This document shows positions 8,562-56,646 of a stretch of DNA of 64,000 bases, one piece after another (position 1 is the first letter of the stretch; each line of letters opens with the position of its first letter). A program made the position numbers and the translations under genes. Origin of the DNA: Geotoga petraea (lineage in GTDB: Bacteria; Thermotogota; Thermotogae; Petrotogales; Petrotogaceae); assembly GCF_900102615.1 (NCBI RefSeq), contig NZ_FMYV01000005.1:124001-188000 (forward strand), read 5' to 3'. The notes under the pieces are model-generated. The model did not search any database. It was not told where the DNA came from and worked only from the letters and a program-made list of their open reading frames with translations.

Positions 8562-9257
8562 ATGTATGATAATGATGATTATAACGAAATGATAAAGAAA
8601 ATTTTAGAGAACAACCCTGAATTAAGGAATTTTAATTTAGACTTTTTAAAAGATATCAATCCCGACGATTTAGAAGAAATAATATCAAAGCTAAAAGAAG
8701 CTTCTATGAAATTTCAAAAAGCTGAAGATAAAGTAAAACAAAAAGTTAATGAGAAATTATCCTTTGAAAAGAAAGAGCTGTCTATTGATTATGATAACTA
8801 TTTGAAAACTATTATGATCTTTCCGTTTGCCTTGGCAGTAGGTGAGGATATATTAGAAGATAAATCAGAAGAGGGATATTTGAAAGGTGAGTTTTTTGGT
8901 AAAAAAGTTAATTTTAACTACAACAATATATATGAATTGATATCTATCAAAAAAAACGTAGCTATGAAAATAGGTCTCCTAATTAGAAAGAATTATCCAG
9001 ACTTTTTAGAATTCAGAGAAGACATAATGTCTTATTTGAGAAATACTACTAATAAATATCTTGAATCTTTTGGGTTTGAAGAAGATTTTGAAATTAAAGA
9101 TATCAGGGAATTTAATATGGTTGTAAAATTGAAACCAAAAAATTATGATTCTATTGAACAATTCTATGAAAATCACTTGGATTTAGAAAAAATAGATAAG
9201 TATAAAATTTTGAAAGCCTATCTAATAACAGAGTTTTCAATTGCTATAATTGATTGA
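8562..9257 (+). CDS. Uncharacterised protein co-transcribed with the MerR-methyltransferase
   Basis: Not recognised. A 231-residue, acidic, probably cytoplasmic protein with no signal peptide or membrane segment. The first ~75 residues are charged and predicted helical, with NPELRNFNLDFLKDINPDDL; the rest looks globular and contains no catalytic motif I know. An AAGGAG ribosome binding site precedes the ATG. It is 27 nt after the MerR-methyltransferase gene on the same strand, so a shared function is plausible but unproven. Confidence 0.7.
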   Translation: MYDNDDYNEMIKKILENNPELRNFNLDFLKDINPDDLEEIISKLKEASMKFQKAEDKVKQKVNEKLSFEKKELSIDYDNYLKTIMIFPFALAVGEDILEDKSEEGYLKGEFFGKKVNFNYNNIYELISIKKNVAMKIGLLIRKNYPDFLEFREDIMSYLRNTTNKYLESFGFEEDFEIKDIREFNMVVKLKPKNYDSIEQFYENHLDLEKIDKYKILKAYLITEFSIAIID

Positions 9258-9300
9258 TAGAAATGAAACATAATATGCATAAAATTTAAACATTTATCAC

Positions 9301-9329
9301 TTGATTTTAGATTTTTTATTTGCTATAAT
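9301..9329 (+). promoter_or_regulatory. Promoter of the cold-shock gene
   Basis: TTGATT (9301-9306), exactly 17 nt, then TATAAT (9324-9329). The leader from about 9336 to 9393 contains a small hairpin, GCTAC (9352-9356) with GTAGC (9362-9366). Confidence 0.8.
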
Positions 9330-9393
9330 ATAAATAAGTAACTAACTGCATGCTACATTTGGTAGCGCGGTTGTAAAAAATGGAGGTATTCAC

Positions 9394-9591
9394 GTGAAAG
9401 GTACAGTTAAATGGTTTGACGCAAAAAAAGGTTATGGTTTCATCACAGGAGAAGATGGTAAAGACGTATTTGTTCATTTCTCAGCAGTAGATATGGATGG
9501 ATATAAGAAATTAGAAGAAAACCAAGAAGTAGATTTTGAAATTGTTGAAGGCGAAAAAGGTCCACAAGCTTCAAACGTAACAGTTAGATAA
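9394..9591 (+). CDS. Cold-shock protein, CspA family
   Basis: Single 65-residue OB-fold that binds single-stranded RNA and DNA as a chaperone. RNP1 is KGYGFI (12-17) and RNP2 is VFVHF (25-29); the opening [14 protein letters not shown] is diagnostic. Translation starts at GTG 9394 after TGGAGGT. It is monocistronic, with a near-consensus promoter and a strong terminator, suggesting high expression. The ~58-nt leader with a hairpin could be a temperature-responsive element, but it is much shorter than the E. coli cspA leader. Confidence 0.96.
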
Positions 9592-9624
9592 ATCTAACCA
9601 TAATCCGCCTATTAAGGCTTAAAT

Positions 9625-9660
9625 AAGGGTTGCTGTTTTTACAGCAACCCTTAATATTTT
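9625..9660. terminator. Bidirectional terminator between csp and deoC
   Basis: A 12-bp perfect stem (AAGGGTTGCTGT with ACAGCAACCCTT, loop TTTT) is followed by an AT-rich tail on both strands. It separates convergent csp and deoC. Confidence 0.88.
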
Positions 9661-9665
9661 ATATG

Positions 9666-10403
9666 TTAGCCTTTAATTATTTTTATTCCAGAACTTGCTC
9701 CAATTCTTGTAGCCCCTGATTTGACCATCTTTGAAGCTTTTTCAAAATCTCGTATTCCGCCAGAAGCTTTAACTTCCATATCTTCACCAACGACAAACTT
9801 CATCAAAGAAACATCTTCTTCAGTTGCTCCAGCGGTTCCAAATCCTGTTGATGTTTTAACAAATTCAGCTCCAGCCATTTTAGATAATACACAAGCAGCT
9901 ATCTTTTCAGTTTTATCTAAATAGCAGGTTTCTATTATAACTTTTACCAATTTGTCTCCAGAAGCTTTAACTACCGCTTTTATATCTTCTAATACTTTGT
10001 CATACTGTCTTGCTTTTAACCACCCTATATTGATAACCATATCTAATTCATCTGCTCCATCAGAAACGGCTATTTTTGATTCTTCAGCTTTTGATTTTGA
10101 AGACGTGGCTCCTAAAGGAAACCCTATAACCGTTGCTATTTTAACCTCTGAACCTTCAAGGTTTTCTTTTGAAATTTTGACCATACCTGGATTTACACAA
10201 ACTGAGAAAAATTTATTATCTTTTGCTTCTTCACAAAGTTTTATAACGTCTTTTTCAGTTGCATATGCATGTAGCAATGTGTGATCAATCATATTTGCAA
10301 TATCTTCAGGTTTTACTTCTATATTTCTGTACTCATGTTTATATTCATTTTCTACTCTTTCTACTTCTTTAGATATAGCCGCATTCAAATCTTTTAAATT
10401 CAA
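9666..10403 (-). CDS. deoC: Deoxyribose-phosphate aldolase
   Basis: Class I aldolase cleaving 2-deoxyribose 5-phosphate to glyceraldehyde 3-phosphate and acetaldehyde in deoxynucleoside salvage. The Schiff-base lysine is in EFVKTSTGFG; the proton-relay lysine is in VKASGGIRD; the early catalytic Asp/Lys strand is DELDMVINIG. The 245-residue length fits the family, with an N-terminal ~30-residue helix extension. The start is TTG at 10403, preceded by GGAGTG. It is 13 nt after the TPR gene, so it may be the last gene of the 15910-9666 run. Confidence 0.94.
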   Translation of the reverse strand: MNLKDLNAAISKEVERVENEYKHEYRNIEVKPEDIANMIDHTLLHAYATEKDVIKLCEEAKDNKFFSVCVNPGMVKISKENLEGSEVKIATVIGFPLGATSSKSKAEESKIAVSDGADELDMVINIGWLKARQYDKVLEDIKAVVKASGDKLVKVIIETCYLDKTEKIAACVLSKMAGAEFVKTSTGFGTAGATEEDVSLMKFVVGEDMEVKASGGIRDFEKASKMVKSGATRIGASSGIKIIKG

Positions 10404-49103: not shown

Positions 49104-49452
49104 CCCCCTCTACTATCACAAAGGCTATTGCATATTCTTTTTCATGACTTATTGATAGTTTAATATTAAAATCTCCAATAACATTTTTTAAATATGTTAT
49201 TGTTTTATCACTTAAATAAGGTTCTCCTTTATCGTTCTTTAAAACTTCTATCTTTTTGAAATCAAAAGATGTTTCAAGCGCTTTGAACAATGACTCTTTT
49301 ACAGCAAATCTACCTGCTGCAAATTCTTTTTTCCTATTTTCATTTGAAAAGGTATGATATATTTTCAACTCTGAATCAGATAGTATTCTGTTTATTACCC
49401 TTCCATTTAATCTTTCTATTTTTACTATATCAGTACCTATACCTTTAACCAT
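49096..49452 (-). CDS. acpS: Holo-[acyl-carrier-protein] synthase
   Basis: Transfers 4'-phosphopantetheine from CoA to apo-ACP in fatty-acid synthesis. The 118-residue protein has the Mg-binding GTDIVKIERL (6-15) and FAAGRFAVKESLFKAL motifs, and ends with LSISHEKEYAIAFV. The start overlaps the FtsA-like gene by 8 nt and the end overlaps ligA by 8 nt, so it is translationally coupled on both sides. Confidence 0.95.
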   Translation of the reverse strand: MVKGIGTDIVKIERLNGRVINRILSDSELKIYHTFSNENRKKEFAAGRFAVKESLFKALETSFDFKKIEVLKNDKGEPYLSDKTITYLKNVIGDFNIKLSISHEKEYAIAFVIVEGVD

Positions 49453-51511
49453 TGTATTTAAAAGTGATCGTTGAATTCTCTGGTATTTTTTGCATAAAAG
49501 ATGTCACCTTTTCCCCATTTATTTTCAAATCGAACGATTTGATGTTTTTTGTGTCTATATCTAAATGCGAAAATAGATCAATTATATTTGGCTTGTATTC
49601 TTCTTTTATTATTTTATAGTTTGATCCACTTTTAACTTGAGAATCTAAATCTGTATTTTTAGAGCCATTTTTTATATATATCTTCTCTTTTTCCAAATTT
49701 ATTTTTTTCCCATTGTAAGTAACTTCAAATGTTTTTACATCTGTATCAATAAATTCTTTTATTTTTGGCAACTTTAACCTTTTAACTTGAAAACTATCGC
49801 CATCTTTAATTATTTCTTCTTCATCTACTATCTGGTCATTTCTTATTATTGTAAATTCCCCAGGAATTTCATAAGGAACATTATCCAAAGTGAAATAAAT
49901 AGATTCTGAATGTTCTTCAACTATATCTTTTACTTTTGGAGTAACTGTTTTTATTTTTTGCCCATCTTTTAATTGTGTATTTATTGAGACCTCATTATCA
50001 TCTATAATAACTTTTGGATATATTTTTTTTGGTTCACCGTTTAAGAAATAGTTAATTGAATTAATTATTTCTTTTAAAGTTACCTCTACATCTTCTCCTT
50101 TTTCAGGAGGGTATAATTCTATTTTATCCCCAGGTTTGACCTTTGACTTTAAATTGGCTTTTTGATTGTTAATTTTTATCATGGCTTCTTTACCCAAGTT
50201 CCCTTTTTTTATTTTAAATTCTCCATTAAGCTCATACGTAATGGCTTTAGAAGGTTTCCCAATTAACTGATTTGGCGAGTATCCCATTTGTAATAATACT
50301 TGCATTACAGATAAATCAGTTCCTATCATCATCATGTTTACAACAGTTCCATTAACTGTAACAGAGTTGAAAACATTTCCCTCTTTTTTCAATGCAGAGT
50401 TCGCTATTCCAATTGGAGTGATGTATTCACTTCCAAACATTTTTTCTTCTTCAAATTTTATTTTTGTTAAGCTATCTGTTGATTTTAGAGCTATTCTATT
50501 TTCTTCGAGCTCTAAATATTCCGCTATTTTTTCTTTAAATGATGGCACTTTGCCTCCACCACCAACTAACATTACGGCTACAGGTGATTTACCATTGAGT
50601 TCTAATATTTTGTTCGAGATTTCAGAAGTTATCTTATCAATTGGTTCCTTTATTATTTCCATTATCTTCTCTTTTGAAATTTCGTGTTCAAAATCTAAAA
50701 TATCTTTGTATTTAAATGAATCTTTGTTTATAAGATCTTTTTTTATTTTTTCTGCTGAGTTGAAATCTATTAACAGTTCTTTTGTTATAGCATCTGTTAT
50801 TTCGTCCCCAGCTAAAGGAACCATTCCATAGCCCGTAATCGTGCCTTCATTTGAAATTGCTATGTCTGATGTGCCAGCTCCGACGTCAACCATAGCTATA
50901 TTCAATGTTCTCAAATCTTCAGGTACTACTAAATTCATAGCCGCTATTGGTTCTAAAGTTATATGAATTGGATTCAATCCATTCATTTCCAAAACAGTTA
51001 ACATTGCTTCTACAACATTTTTTGGTAAGAATGCAGCTATTACCTTTACTTTTGCTTTTTTACCTTTCTGGCCTTCTAAATGCTTTATCCATTCATCATC
51101 AACTTCATAATATAAAACAGAATAACCTACACAATACATACCTTTTGAATAATCTAACTTCTCTGTAGCTTCTTTTACAGCTTCTAATTCAATTTTTCTA
51201 ACTTGAGGTCTATCTACATAACCTTGAGAGCTTATATCTAATTCATACTCTCCAGTTGTTGTGATTAAAAATCTTCCTGCAAGAGCTACTGCAACTTCAT
51301 GTGGAGTTTCTCCAGTTTTTTCGTTTATACTTTCCAATATTCTTTTAACACCTTTTGCAACCTTATTTACATCATGAATTTGACCATCCATCATGGCTCT
51401 GTTTTCATGTTCTTTTTCAAAAGAATGATTTATTATGATGTTTTCATCATCATCTATTTCTGCAAGTATACCAACCAAATTTCTTGTACCTAAATCCAAT
51501 GAAAAAACCAT
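49445..51511 (-). CDS. FtsA-like actin-fold protein with extended beta-repeat tail
   Basis: A 688-residue member of the FtsA/PilM actin superfamily. The first ~380 residues hold the nucleotide-binding motifs: phosphate 1 FSLDLGTRNLVG, phosphate 2 MVDVGAGTSDIAI and adenosine-site LVGGGGKVPSFKEK; GRFLITTTGEYELDI lies where the FtsA 1C-type subdomain sits. The C-terminal ~300 residues have five similar units built on an Asn-Gly/Asp turn followed by VKPGDKIEL, LKDGQKIKTV, IKDGDSFQVK, VKSGSNYKII and PENSTITFKY, resembling small beta-grasp folds. No FtsA membrane-targeting helix is evident at the end. Long FtsA-like proteins of this kind are found next to mutS2 in some Firmicutes and Thermotogota; the role is not established. 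Confidence 0.82.
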   Translation of the reverse strand: MVFSLDLGTRNLVGILAEIDDDENIIINHSFEKEHENRAMMDGQIHDVNKVAKGVKRILESINEKTGETPHEVAVALAGRFLITTTGEYELDISSQGYVDRPQVRKIELEAVKEATEKLDYSKGMYCVGYSVLYYEVDDEWIKHLEGQKGKKAKVKVIAAFLPKNVVEAMLTVLEMNGLNPIHITLEPIAAMNLVVPEDLRTLNIAMVDVGAGTSDIAISNEGTITGYGMVPLAGDEITDAITKELLIDFNSAEKIKKDLINKDSFKYKDILDFEHEISKEKIMEIIKEPIDKITSEISNKILELNGKSPVAVMLVGGGGKVPSFKEKIAEYLELEENRIALKSTDSLTKIKFEEEKMFGSEYITPIGIANSALKKEGNVFNSVTVNGTVVNMMMIGTDLSVMQVLLQMGYSPNQLIGKPSKAITYELNGEFKIKKGNLGKEAMIKINNQKANLKSKVKPGDKIELYPPEKGEDVEVTLKEIINSINYFLNGEPKKIYPKVIIDDNEVSINTQLKDGQKIKTVTPKVKDIVEEHSESIYFTLDNVPYEIPGEFTIIRNDQIVDEEEIIKDGDSFQVKRLKLPKIKEFIDTDVKTFEVTYNGKKINLEKEKIYIKNGSKNTDLDSQVKSGSNYKIIKEEYKPNIIDLFSHLDIDTKNIKSFDLKINGEKVTSFMQKIPENSTITFKYNG

Positions 51512-51513
51512 TA

Positions 51514-53826
51514 TTACACCTCCACAACAGTTACTCCACTTCCACCTTCACCAGTTTTACCCAATCTAAAGTTTTTAATATCTTTGTTCTTCCTTAAATA
51601 ATCCCAAATTCCTTCTGCTAATTTACCTGAACCTTTTCCGTGAATAATATATCCTTCGTCCATCTCATTTAACATGATGTCTGATAGAAGCTTTTCTATT
51701 TCAGGAATTGCTTCTTGGACAGTATATCCTCTCAAATCAATTTCAGGTATTACCTTTTTTGTTGGAGTATAGGTCATTTTATCGGATAAACTTGTCTTTC
51801 TATTGTTTTCTTTTTTAACTGGTTTTAGTTCTGAAAGATCATACGTAATCTCTATTGGAGAATCTTCTAAATTGACTTTTGCTTTTTTACCTCTTATTTC
51901 AGAAATCTCTCCTTTTTTATTCCCTTGTACTAATACTTTCATACCTTTTTCAAAATTATATTTGATTTTCTTGTTTTTCGCTTTATCCATATCTCTACTT
52001 TTGAAGTTATTCTGAATATTCTCTAATTTTTTTAAAGAATTTTTCGCATCTTCAAGGTTTTTAGAATACTTTATATTTTTTATCAAGTTTTCCATTTCTT
52101 TTTTTGCTTCTCTTATTTGAGAGTTTAAGTTTCCTATTTCATTATCTAATTCCTCAATTTTTTTATCCTTTAATAACTCATATTTTTTGTTGAACTCTCT
52201 TTCCTTTTTTTCAAGTTGTTTTCTTTTATTTTCATGAAACTCTTTATTTGATTGCATCTCTTCATAAGTCTTTGAAATTTTGCTGAATATATTTTCACTG
52301 TTTGAATGTTCAGATGAAATATATTCAGTTGCTTTTTCTATTATTTCTTTTATAAAACCCATTCTGCTTGCAATTTCTATGGCATGTGATGCGCCTGGAA
52401 CCCCCATCATAAGATGATAGGTCGGTTTTAAAGTATCCATATCAAAGGACATAGATGCAGATGTTAAATTAGAATTTTCTATAGAATAAAGCTTTATTTC
52501 AGATAAATGTGATGTAATAAAAAGCTTCACGTTTTTTTTGATGAGATAGTCTATTATAGACTTTCCTAAAGCTGAACCTTCAATTGGGTCAGTTCCAGTC
52601 CCAAGTTCATCTATTAAAACCAAGCTATTTTCATCAGCATTTTTTATGATTTCGTTTATATTTACCAAATGTGCAGAAAAAGTGCTCAAATTTTGAGTTA
52701 TGCTCTGCTCGTCACCCATATCAGTATATATAGAATTTATAAAAGGCATTTCTGCTTTCATACTCAAAATTGGTAACCCTACATGTGATAGGAAAAAGGC
52801 AACTCCTATTGACTTAAGAGTGACTGTTTTACCTCCGGTATTTGGTCCTGTTATAATCATCCCATTGTTTTCTAAATCTATGTCTAAAGGAACAGAGCCA
52901 TCTCCTAACAAAGGATGTTTTAAATCTTTAAAATATATTTTTTTATGGTGCTTTTTTGGAATGAAATAGTCCGCCTTCCTATAAAAAGAATAATTTGCCT
53001 TTGCAATATGATAATCTATATAAGATACAACATCTATGTTTTTGTATATTGTTTCAATATTTCGGCTTATCATTAATTTTAACTCAGACAATATTCTCGA
53101 TATTTCATTTCTTTCTTTGTTTTGAAGATCTATCAACTCTTCATTTGAGGCACTTATTCTTTCGGGCTCTATAAAATATGTCGCTCCAGAATCAGATTTT
53201 GCTACAAAAATACCTTTTATATATTTTCTGTTCTCTGCCTTTACAGCTAAACAGAGCCTACCGTTTTTAAAAACAGGTTTTTCAATACTAAGATATTTTG
53301 AGTATTTGTTTGTGTAAGAACTGTATAAAGAATCTATTTTTTGTTTTGTTTTTTTTATTTGACTTCTCAAATTTCTCAAAAGTTCTGAAGCTGTATCTTT
53401 TATTTCTCCATCTATATCTATGGCGTTGAATATTTCTTTTGCCATATCTCTTAAAAAAGAAAACTTAATAAATACATCTGTAACATTTTTGTCAAAATTA
53501 TTGTTGTTTTCCTTATATTCTCTGTACACGACTTCATGAAATTCAGCTATTCTTCTAAAGTCTTTGGTTTCCGATATAGAGTTTGATTTTAACTTTTCTA
53601 AAGTTTCTTTTATATCTGGAATTCCTTTAATGTTAAACAGTAACTGGTTGTTCTTTAACATAAAAAAACTTCGGGAAATTTCTATTTCCCGCTGTAAATT
53701 TTCTAAATTTTTATAAAATTGTATTTTTGATTTTAAATATCTTTTGCCATATACACTATGAGAATAGCTACCTATAATTCCAAGTACTTTGTCTATCTCA
53801 AGATCTCTGTATGTTTTCTCTAAAAT
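51514..53826 (-). CDS. mutS2: MutS2 ATPase with Smr domain, probable ATT start
   Basis: MutS2 (RqcU in Bacillus) acts in recombination control and in splitting collided ribosomes. From ATG 53661 the protein has 715 residues, but the frame is open upstream and encodes the conserved MutS2 N-terminus (YRDLEIDKVLGIIGSYSH, then YGKRYLKSK). Between the preceding stop at 53858 and 53661 there is no ATG, GTG or TTG. GGGGGTGG (53841-53834) stands 7 nt before ATT 53826, giving 770 residues, the usual family length. Walker A is GPNTGGKTVTL, Walker B ENSLVLIDELGTGTDP, then a long coiled coil, a KOW-like segment (MKVLVQGNKKGEIS) and the C-terminal Smr domain (IDLRGYTVQEA, IIHGKGSG). It overlaps the upstream outer-membrane gene by 7 nt. 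Confidence 0.9.
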   Translation of the reverse strand: MLEKTYRDLEIDKVLGIIGSYSHSVYGKRYLKSKIQFYKNLENLQREIEISRSFFMLKNNQLLFNIKGIPDIKETLEKLKSNSISETKDFRRIAEFHEVVYREYKENNNNFDKNVTDVFIKFSFLRDMAKEIFNAIDIDGEIKDTASELLRNLRSQIKKTKQKIDSLYSSYTNKYSKYLSIEKPVFKNGRLCLAVKAENRKYIKGIFVAKSDSGATYFIEPERISASNEELIDLQNKERNEISRILSELKLMISRNIETIYKNIDVVSYIDYHIAKANYSFYRKADYFIPKKHHKKIYFKDLKHPLLGDGSVPLDIDLENNGMIITGPNTGGKTVTLKSIGVAFFLSHVGLPILSMKAEMPFINSIYTDMGDEQSITQNLSTFSAHLVNINEIIKNADENSLVLIDELGTGTDPIEGSALGKSIIDYLIKKNVKLFITSHLSEIKLYSIENSNLTSASMSFDMDTLKPTYHLMMGVPGASHAIEIASRMGFIKEIIEKATEYISSEHSNSENIFSKISKTYEEMQSNKEFHENKRKQLEKKEREFNKKYELLKDKKIEELDNEIGNLNSQIREAKKEMENLIKNIKYSKNLEDAKNSLKKLENIQNNFKSRDMDKAKNKKIKYNFEKGMKVLVQGNKKGEISEIRGKKAKVNLEDSPIEITYDLSELKPVKKENNRKTSLSDKMTYTPTKKVIPEIDLRGYTVQEAIPEIEKLLSDIMLNEMDEGYIIHGKGSGKLAEGIWDYLRKNKDIKNFRLGKTGEGGSGVTVVEV

Positions 53827-54383
53827 TGGAACGCCACCCCCATTGAAATTGGAAATTGGTTAACTTTGACGTAACTGTCCTCAGCTTCATCTGTCAACTT
53901 ATAATACCTTGTTTCATAACCAGCGAGAACATATATGTTACTGTATGATAATCCTGCTTGCACTAAGATTTCTGTTGAAAAAGATTTCAAATAATCTGGT
54001 GAATTGACACCACCATAAGCATTCACGACAAAATAGATTTCTTTGAATATTGGGGTAGTATATTTTACATTAAGCCCTAAAGATAAACCTATTGATTTTA
54101 AATCCTCATTATAAGCTGCCAAATAAGTATTTTCAAAACCCTGTATATATGATAAACCAACATAAGGTCCATATTTTATCTCGCCGGTATCTTCGGTATC
54201 TATTAGATAAGATATTCTACCTCCCAAATAATCAAATGGGTAGTTTCCCGATGTTAATTCAGTGACAACTTGAGAAGTTGCTTGCTGAGTTAATGAATAA
54301 GAGGGAGATATAAATATCTCCGATGAAAAACTCACCAACGAAATAATTGTTATAGTTAAAAATAAAAGTATATTTTTCTGCAC
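53820..54383 (-). CDS. Putative outer-membrane beta-barrel protein
   Basis: A 187-residue exported protein: signal peptide 1-~20 (KNILLFLTITIISLVSFSS), then alternating amphipathic strands rich in Tyr, Gly and Ser (for example YGPYVGLSYIQGF, YVLAGYETRYYKL) ending in Phe (VAFQF), the usual C-terminal signal of outer-membrane barrels. This suits the toga of Thermotogota. It lies between dxs and mutS2, one base after the dxs stop, with which it has no functional relation I can see. Confidence 0.75.
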   Translation of the reverse strand: MQKNILLFLTITIISLVSFSSEIFISPSYSLTQQATSQVVTELTSGNYPFDYLGGRISYLIDTEDTGEIKYGPYVGLSYIQGFENTYLAAYNEDLKSIGLSLGLNVKYTTPIFKEIYFVVNAYGGVNSPDYLKSFSTEILVQAGLSYSNIYVLAGYETRYYKLTDEAEDSYVKVNQFPISMGVAFQF

Positions 54384-56216
54384 CTATACCACCCTTTTAT
54401 AATTATTTATGATCTGCTCAATTTTGATATTTAATGTTTTTACATCCAAACCACAAAGTTCTAACTGTTTTTCTCTTGTAGCGTGAGTTATGAATTCATC
54501 TTTTATTCCAAATGAGTAAATCTCTTTATTCGAGAAAATGGAGTGTATTGTCTCTCCAAACCCACCACTCAAGCTCCCTTCTTCCACGGTAATTATCTTT
54601 TCTGCTTTTGATTTAATTTCTTCTATTATTTTTTTATCTAATTCTTTTATCGTTCTAACTCCTATTACATTAATGTCCATTGATTCTGTAGCTTTCAATA
54701 CGTTTTTTGATATTGTTCCTACCGATAAAACATAAGCTGAGCTATCTGAAACTTTTAATTTTTTCCAAGATAAATCAGTATATTCAAGATTATCAATTAT
54801 ATAATCTTTGTCTTTCTCGTAATTTTCTTTAGGAAAACGAATAAAAGTTGGTTTTTTTATTCCTTTTTTAACACACGTATAAATAGTGTTAGCTAAATCC
54901 TGACCATCTAAAGGAGTGATTAACTCGATATTCGGAATCAATTTCAAATATGAAATATCAAAAACACCGTGATGTGTTGGTCCGTCTTCTCCAACTAAAC
55001 CCGCTCTATCTAATAGGAAAAGAGAAGGTATATTTTGCAAGGCAACGTCATGAATTATTGAATCAAATGCCCTCTGCATAAAAGTAGAGTACAAGTCAAC
55101 AACAGGGAGTACCCCTCCTAACGATAAACCAGCTGCAGCAGTCACTATACTGGCTTCTGTTATACCCATATCGATTAATTTTTCAGGATCTTTTTCTTTT
55201 AATATATTCAAACCAGTTCCATCAGCCATAGCACCTGTAAAAGCCAGAAAGTTTTCATCAGATAAATAAGCTAAAACATTACCTACGATTTTAGAATGAG
55301 ATATACCTTTTTTTTCAATAGGCTTAGATACTCCATGAAATTTAGAGGGTTCATTTTCTGCGTTTATATAACCTTTACCCTTTTTAGTCAAGACATGTAA
55401 AACAACAGGACCTTCGTCATATTGTTTTAGATAATTTAAAAACAATTCCATTTCTTTTATGTTGTGACCATCAATAGGTCCTATGTACTTTATACCCAAG
55501 TCTTCAAAAAAACCTATGGGTTCAGAAAAAACTGTGTGCTTGAATCCTTCTTTCATTTTTTTGATCATGTTTTCTAAATCTTGGCCTAATTCTGAATCTC
55601 CTAAAATATCTTTTACCAATTTTTTCAAGGAGTTATAATTTTTTTTCATCCTAATTTTTGAAAATAAATACGAAAAAGTTCCAACGTTTGGAGAAATAGC
55701 CATATCGTTGGAGTTTAATATAATTTTAACATTTGTCTTCTGAAATTTAAGTTGGTTAAGCGATTCCAATGCCATACCACAAGTAAAAGACCCATCACCA
55801 ATTATTGATATAATATTTCTATCTCTTTTTTTTATCTTATCAGCTAAAGTAAAACCTAAAGCGGCAGATATGGAGGTTCCTGCATGTCCTGCTCCAAATT
55901 TATCTGCCTCAGATTCCTTTATATTCGTAAATCCAGATAAACCGTTATAGCGCCTCAGAGTTTTGAATTCATCCCATCTATCAGTTAGTAATTTATGAAC
56001 GTACGCTTGATGAGAAGTATCCCATATAACTACATCTTCATATGGATCAAACACTCTATAGAGAGCTAAAGTTAATTCAACAACTCCAAAATTTGATGCT
56101 AAATGTCCGTTATTGGAATAAACCACATCGTAAATATATTTTCTTATTTCATCAGAAAATTCATAGAGTTGAGTATAATTCATTTCTCTTATTTTTTTAT
56201 ATAATTTTTCTTTCAT
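54384..56216 (-). CDS. dxs: 1-deoxy-D-xylulose-5-phosphate synthase
   Basis: Thiamine-diphosphate enzyme, first step of the MEP isoprenoid pathway, from pyruvate and glyceraldehyde 3-phosphate. Start ATG 56216, 4 nt after the nusB stop and preceded by AAGGATGA; upstream in-frame starts (56231, 56255) lie inside nusB. The 610-residue protein has IWDTSHQAYVHKLLT, thiamine motif GDGSFTCGMALE to NSNDMAIS, the transketolase centre DRAGLVGEDGPTHHG and GSLSGGFGE. It produces precursors for quinone and bactoprenol synthesis. Confidence 0.95.
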   Translation of the reverse strand: MKEKLYKKIREMNYTQLYEFSDEIRKYIYDVVYSNNGHLASNFGVVELTLALYRVFDPYEDVVIWDTSHQAYVHKLLTDRWDEFKTLRRYNGLSGFTNIKESEADKFGAGHAGTSISAALGFTLADKIKKRDRNIISIIGDGSFTCGMALESLNQLKFQKTNVKIILNSNDMAISPNVGTFSYLFSKIRMKKNYNSLKKLVKDILGDSELGQDLENMIKKMKEGFKHTVFSEPIGFFEDLGIKYIGPIDGHNIKEMELFLNYLKQYDEGPVVLHVLTKKGKGYINAENEPSKFHGVSKPIEKKGISHSKIVGNVLAYLSDENFLAFTGAMADGTGLNILKEKDPEKLIDMGITEASIVTAAAGLSLGGVLPVVDLYSTFMQRAFDSIIHDVALQNIPSLFLLDRAGLVGEDGPTHHGVFDISYLKLIPNIELITPLDGQDLANTIYTCVKKGIKKPTFIRFPKENYEKDKDYIIDNLEYTDLSWKKLKVSDSSAYVLSVGTISKNVLKATESMDINVIGVRTIKELDKKIIEEIKSKAEKIITVEEGSLSGGFGETIHSIFSNKEIYSFGIKDEFITHATREKQLELCGLDVKTLNIKIEQIINNYKRVV

Positions 56217-56220
56217 ATAA

Positions 56221-56646
56221 TCATCCTTCATTGCTGCTATAAATTCCTTTTGCAAATCTATCTAATAATCCGTTTACAAATTTTATAGATTTTTCCTCTC
56301 CATATTTTTTAGTAAGTTTTATACTCTCGTCTATTGCAACTTTAAAAGGGACATTTTTTCTGAATTCAAGCTCGTAAAATCCCATTCTTAGAGAAGTTTT
56401 TTCTACAAAACCTAATCTTTCGAATTTCCAATTTTTAAGTTGTTTTTTTATATTGTTATCTATTTCTTCTCTTTTACTAAGTAGATCTTGTATATATTTT
56501 TTTGATTGGTTAATGCTTTTTTGATCTAACTTGGCATCTTTTGAATTTTCTTCAATTAAAAACTCAATATCTTCTTCGTTAAGTTCTCTATAGTTTAACT
56601 GAAATAGAATTGTAAAAGAAAATTCTCTAACAGGAGATATATCCAT
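56221..56646 (-). CDS. nusB: Transcription antitermination factor NusB
   Basis: Helical RNA-binding factor for rRNA antitermination, 141 residues. [13 protein letters not shown] at the start, [19 protein letters not shown] in the middle and [28 protein letters not shown] at the end are the family's conserved blocks. It starts with a one-base overlap with the Asp23 gene stop and is followed by dxs, an arrangement also common in Firmicutes (asp23-nusB). Confidence 0.93.

Follow-up and report, generated by a model that had tools for sequence, protein, structure and literature searches.

The window analysed here, a stretch of 64,000 nucleotides from Geotoga petraea, carries a gene for a MutS2 (RqcU-like) protein in a tightly packed gene string on the minus strand. 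The following features are relevant, listed in the direction of transcription:

54384 to 56255, minus strand: dxs, upstream in the same gene string
53820 to 54383, minus strand: gene for an OMP-like beta-barrel protein with a signal-peptide-like N-terminus and a C-terminal Phe, no Pfam match
53860 to 53862, minus strand: in-frame TAA, read directly, that shuts the mutS2 frame on its 5' side
53834 to 53841, minus strand: Shine-Dalgarno (SD) site GGGGGTGG, score 19, inside the upstream gene, where GVA is encoded
53824 to 53826, minus strand: ATT start codon of mutS2, the sole candidate with an SD site
53820 to 53826, minus strand: 7-nt overlap ATTTTAG, formed by the mutS2 start and the Phe and stop codons of the upstream gene
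53659 to 53661, minus strand: first canonical start (ATG) of the mutS2 frame, whose use would cost 55 conserved residues
51514 to 53826, minus strand: mutS2 coding sequence from ATT, 770 codons plus stop (TIGR01069, Pfam MutS_V and Smr)
49445 to 51511, minus strand: gene for an FtsA/PilM-like ATPase, directly 3' of mutS2 with a 2-nt gap

Behind the TAA at 53862-53860 the mutS2 frame begins with PISNFNGGGVPILEKTYRDLEIDKVLGIIGSYSHSVYGKRYLKSK, and neither ATG nor GTG nor TTG occurs in the window sequence from there to the ATG at 53661. An earlier, sequence-only reading had described this frame as open and devoid of canonical starts before 53661, with GGGGGTGG at 53841-53834 lying 7 nt ahead of ATT 53826 and with a product of 770 residues, the usual length of the family. 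All of these coordinates and counts were reproduced by direct reading. The product matches TIGR01069 with 685 bits, above the cut-off, over profile positions 2-789 of 790; as the match reaches profile position 2, the N-terminus read from ATT belongs to the family. Pfam recognized MutS_V and Smr only and the mismatch-recognition domain is absent. A KOW-like stretch, KGMKVLVQGNKKGEISEIRGKKAKVNLEDSPIEI, is visible by eye ahead of the SMR domain, while the Pfam search gave no KOW match. In Bacillus subtilis, MutS2 is an ATPase that splits collided ribosomes, to which it is recruited by its SMR and KOW domains (PMC10897456). The genome of the window also encodes an RqcH homologue, which starts at ATG. 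RqcH is the partner of MutS2 in B. subtilis and acts downstream of splitting.

ATT 53826 has an SD score of 19 and ATG 53661 one of 6. For comparison, the best-scoring canonical candidates of 350 non-dominated coding frames in 371 kb have a median score of 16. A score of 19 was reached by only 4 of 7,959 internal in-frame ATT, ATA or ATC codons. We surveyed the same 371 kb (about 17% of the genome, 350 coding frames) for frames in which at least 50 coding codons precede the first canonical start, this start has no SD site and a near-cognate codon has an SD score of at least 16. Only mutS2 and tsaE combined all three properties. The start region of mutS2 is less structured than shuffled sequences (z +2.06), and the RNA structure check of this region revealed no hairpin of note. 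We conclude that mutS2 has a true near-cognate ATT start, for which chance is an unlikely explanation. Three features of the near-cognate class are present: no ATG, GTG or TTG codon at the true N-terminus, a strong and well-spaced SD site and a conserved start codon.

Conservation was assessed in 21 genomes from eight genera of the same family, in all of which the mutS2 start was read. ATT followed by TTR stands at the homologous codon in 14 of the 21 genomes, representing seven of the eight genera. The alignment of relatives that the sequence-only reading had proposed thus yielded ATT in 13 further genomes and ATG in seven, all from the sister genus g6, where it occupies exactly the homologous codon (MNQKTYKDLEI versus ILEKTYKDLEI). 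ATT directly follows an in-frame TAA in g3, g7 and g8. Three of the 14 ATT genomes (L037, L040, L044) are ambiguous, as they have TTG at codon 2 that could serve as a start. The conservation claimed for the N-terminal 55 residues holds as well: they are kept in the relatives and are under purifying selection, with pN/pS for codons 2-55 of 0.085/0.246 in g3, 0.150/0.735 in g4 and 0.072/0.276 in g8, which resembles the rest of the gene.

A feature absent from the earlier reading, and seen by direct reading, is that the ATT shares bases with the stop of the upstream gene. The OMP-like open reading frame (54383-53820) ends in GCG TTC CAA TTT TAG, with TTT TAG at 53825-53820. Without exception, the 14 family genomes with ATT encode an upstream protein with a C-terminal Phe, and the stop of the upstream gene forms the 7-nt overlap with the ATT. 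The upstream gene of g6, the genus with ATG, terminates before the ATG, and the overlap is absent. If the 7-nt overlap were combined with an NTG start, the last upstream codon would read TGN (Cys or Trp) instead of TTT for Phe; an ATG placed immediately ahead of ATT would introduce a TGA into the upstream reading frame. Outer-membrane barrels are usually recognized by a C-terminal Phe. As judged from these sequences, the overlap together with the C-terminal Phe would force NTT, and the codon is probably at least partly locked as AUU in this family. Taken by itself, conservation of the A in ATT is weak support, because this A is the wobble base of an upstream codon and is expected from codon usage (wobble A makes up 83-86% in the AAR and CAR codons of this genome). 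With a 7-nt overlap, stop and start are as close to each other as translational coupling demands. An OMP-like gene precedes mutS2 in the family of the window and, to go by the C-terminus of the encoded protein (TFIPIKLGVGGEY), in family f11 as well, where in L083, L102 and L074 the upstream stop ends 7 nt into the open mutS2 frame.

A phylum-wide survey of 103 genomes provided 95 usable mutS2 starts. In family f3, all 11 genomes have an AUH start (10 ATA, 1 ATT), located 6-8 nt after GGAGGTG and at offset -8 from the L(E/D)(F/Y) motif, the same offset as in the window family. The third base of the f3 start is equalled in conservation by only 2 of 205 other codons, none of the 205 being invariant. 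The upstream gene in f3 differs from that in the window family and its stop lies upstream of the mutS2 start in most f3 genomes. In a third clade (f11/g38), GGAGGTG is followed after 7 nt by ATA in both genomes. A tree built from the N-terminal 205 columns needs three changes of the start label versus 23.7 in shuffles, a contrast that is inflated by near-copies, and the three changes may also represent one gain followed by losses. Among 30 mutS2 genes of Lactobacillales, every one has a canonical candidate, the commonest being an ATG at the same position, -8 as counted from the L(E/D)(F/Y/I) motif. A contig search with the MutS2 protein gave one distant true mutS2 only, and a literature search on mutS2 start codons in Thermotoga found nothing relevant.

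The ATG at 53661 is the first canonical start of the frame and the one that standard gene callers would be expected to take. That it is the true start, giving a protein without the first 55 residues, is nevertheless very improbable, since it lacks an SD site and the residues in question are conserved and under purifying selection in relatives; the evolution of codons 2-55 as protein argues strongly against this ATG as the start of the main product. A single wrong base would be enough to turn ATG into ATT, and we give a sequencing or assembly error a vanishingly small probability, as ATT recurs in 13 other genomes of different genera and an ATG at this place would convert the upstream Phe codon TTT into TGT. 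The relatives refute such an error, with ATT in 14 of 21, ATG at the same codon in the eighth genus and protein-like codons 2-55. A barrel-MutS2 fusion that needs no start codon, generated by -1 frameshifting where the upstream gene ends, could be suspected from the -1 relation of the frames in the 7-nt overlap and from the run of T. This is highly improbable: CAA TTT TAG contains no slippery heptamer in the zero frame, tRNA-Phe on ATT would mismatch at the first base, the signal-peptide-like N-terminus of the upstream protein would cause the fusion to be exported, and the overlap is absent in the sister genus as well as in most genomes of the second family. Both the frameshift fusion and the internal start were rejected, the former for want of a slippery site, the latter for the missing SD site at ATG 53661 and the conserved N-terminus.

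A more serious alternative accepts the ATT start and takes it as a mere by-product of the overlap: Phe plus stop force NTT, AUU is the sole workable NTT codon, and no selection for weak or IF3-sensitive initiation need be assumed. Overlap and Phe codon do occur together in all 14 ATT genomes, and the sole genus without the overlap has ATG. However, AUA or AUU is used in 11 of 11 genomes of the second family despite a different upstream gene and a stop that is mostly located upstream of the start, and the third clade has ATA, too. The overlap is therefore not the whole story, and we regard this explanation as possible but do not favor it.

Near-cognate starts are not confined to mutS2 in these genomes. 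The gene for IF3, infC, is the textbook IF3-discriminated gene. In the window family it starts at ATA (GGTGA..ATA AGC GAT). In most of the genomes an in-frame stop lies a short way upstream and no canonical alternative exists; the start is ATC in genus g11 and ATA in g9. Likewise, infC of L063 (G000:C13, near 9189-9686, minus strand) has the apparent start ATA (AAAAAGGATGGTGATACTC-ATA-AGC). The ATA start of infC provides a calibration of the method and hints that the check by IF3 operates in these genomes. The second gene from the survey, tsaE (L156, G000:C2:8204, plus strand), starts with ATT TTA GAA after GGGGG with an SD score of 16, and its survey frame in the window genome contains no ATG, GTG or TTG before the P-loop. 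In several relatives tsaE apparently starts at ATT or ATA, as judged by eye from SD spacing. A frame for a McrB-like AAA ATPase (G000:C5:19728-21482, minus strand, 585 codons) has 50 coding codons before its first ATG. It may be a weaker third case, with either an ATA start (score 13) or a damaged gene. As tsaE is near-cognate too and RqcH starts at ATG, the near-cognate class is not specific to collision rescue.

Taken as a whole, we consider it likely that mutS2 is initiated at AUU 53826 by means of a strong SD site, at a codon locked by the overlap, under discrimination by IF3 and with low output. On the best reading, mutS2 is one of a small class of near-cognate, IF3-discriminated starts that are rescued by strong SD sites. 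The SD site in the last upstream codons would place 30S or terminating ribosomes at the AUU, and ribosomes terminating at the overlapping UAG probably help by re-initiating there; gene overlaps are known to promote translational coupling (PMC10666635). Initiation at AUU would be slow and limited by IF3. Since IF3 discriminates against AUU, output per message is expected to be low and to track IF3 activity, as for infC, and MutS2 production is probably held low deliberately. Noncanonical starts are repressed by IF3, and infC and Streptomyces sigR are controlled in this way (PMC5472188); an excess of IF3 also lowers re-initiation (PMC2268962). AUA and AUU starts with extended SD sites gave about 10% of AUG output in Staphylococcus aureus in poor medium (PMC13009471). 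Against this stands a survey in E. coli, cited in PMC10666635, in which ATT reached only about 0.3% of the efficiency of ATG.

By analogy with these systems, the proposal of the sequence-only reading that mutS2 is tied to translation-initiation status through IF3 is plausible. As infC starts at AUA in the same family, both genes should be subject to the same discrimination by IF3. Since MutS2 is not itself an initiation factor, control by IF3 would run in one direction only, unless feedback exists; a feedback between IF3 or initiation fidelity and ribosome rescue is likewise plausible by analogy. A further-reaching idea casts MutS2 as a read-out of initiation fidelity: scarce IF3 or a 30S/70S shift would increase AUU/AUA use and hence MutS2, selection would have kept this arrangement in at least three clades, and infC, possibly with tsaE, would belong to the same IF3 regulon. 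We put this forward as speculation that we think rather unlikely to hold in full.

Several known systems resemble mutS2 in part. infC (AUU, AUA or AUC), whose autoregulation by IF3 is established in E. coli (reviewed in PMC5472188), shares with it an SD-driven near-cognate start conserved over a bacterial group. In contrast to infC, mutS2 encodes no initiation factor and its start overlaps the upstream gene. In S. aureus, the non-canonical starts of ccpN (AUA), cvfC1 (AUU) and citZ (AUA) keep output strongly below that of AUG, and those of ccpN and cvfC1 are conserved and have extended SD sites (PMC13009471). These are other genes, and their effect was shown by experiment, whereas for mutS2 it is deduced. 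Streptomyces sigR is a regulated gene with a non-canonical start that gene callers mis-annotate and IF3 represses (PMC5472188); its start is GUC, unlike the AUU/AUA of mutS2, and was demonstrated experimentally. Coupled pairs of the ATGA or TAATG type likewise combine start-stop overlap with a tight gene string (PMC10666635), but differ from mutS2, in which a near-cognate start lies in an overlap of 7 nt instead of the usual NTG.

The start of mutS2 provides a clear example of an OMP-like gene whose C-terminal Phe determines the start codon of its neighbour. As the comparison of genomes demonstrates, rather than a single aberrant base, gene calling restricted to ATG, GTG and TTG would miss the conserved N-terminal part of MutS2 in three clades of the phylum. 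With mutS2, a ribosome-rescue ATPase joins the few genes whose start codons are conserved and probably discriminated by IF3, and the tuning of ribosome rescue by the level of IF3 becomes a directly testable question.
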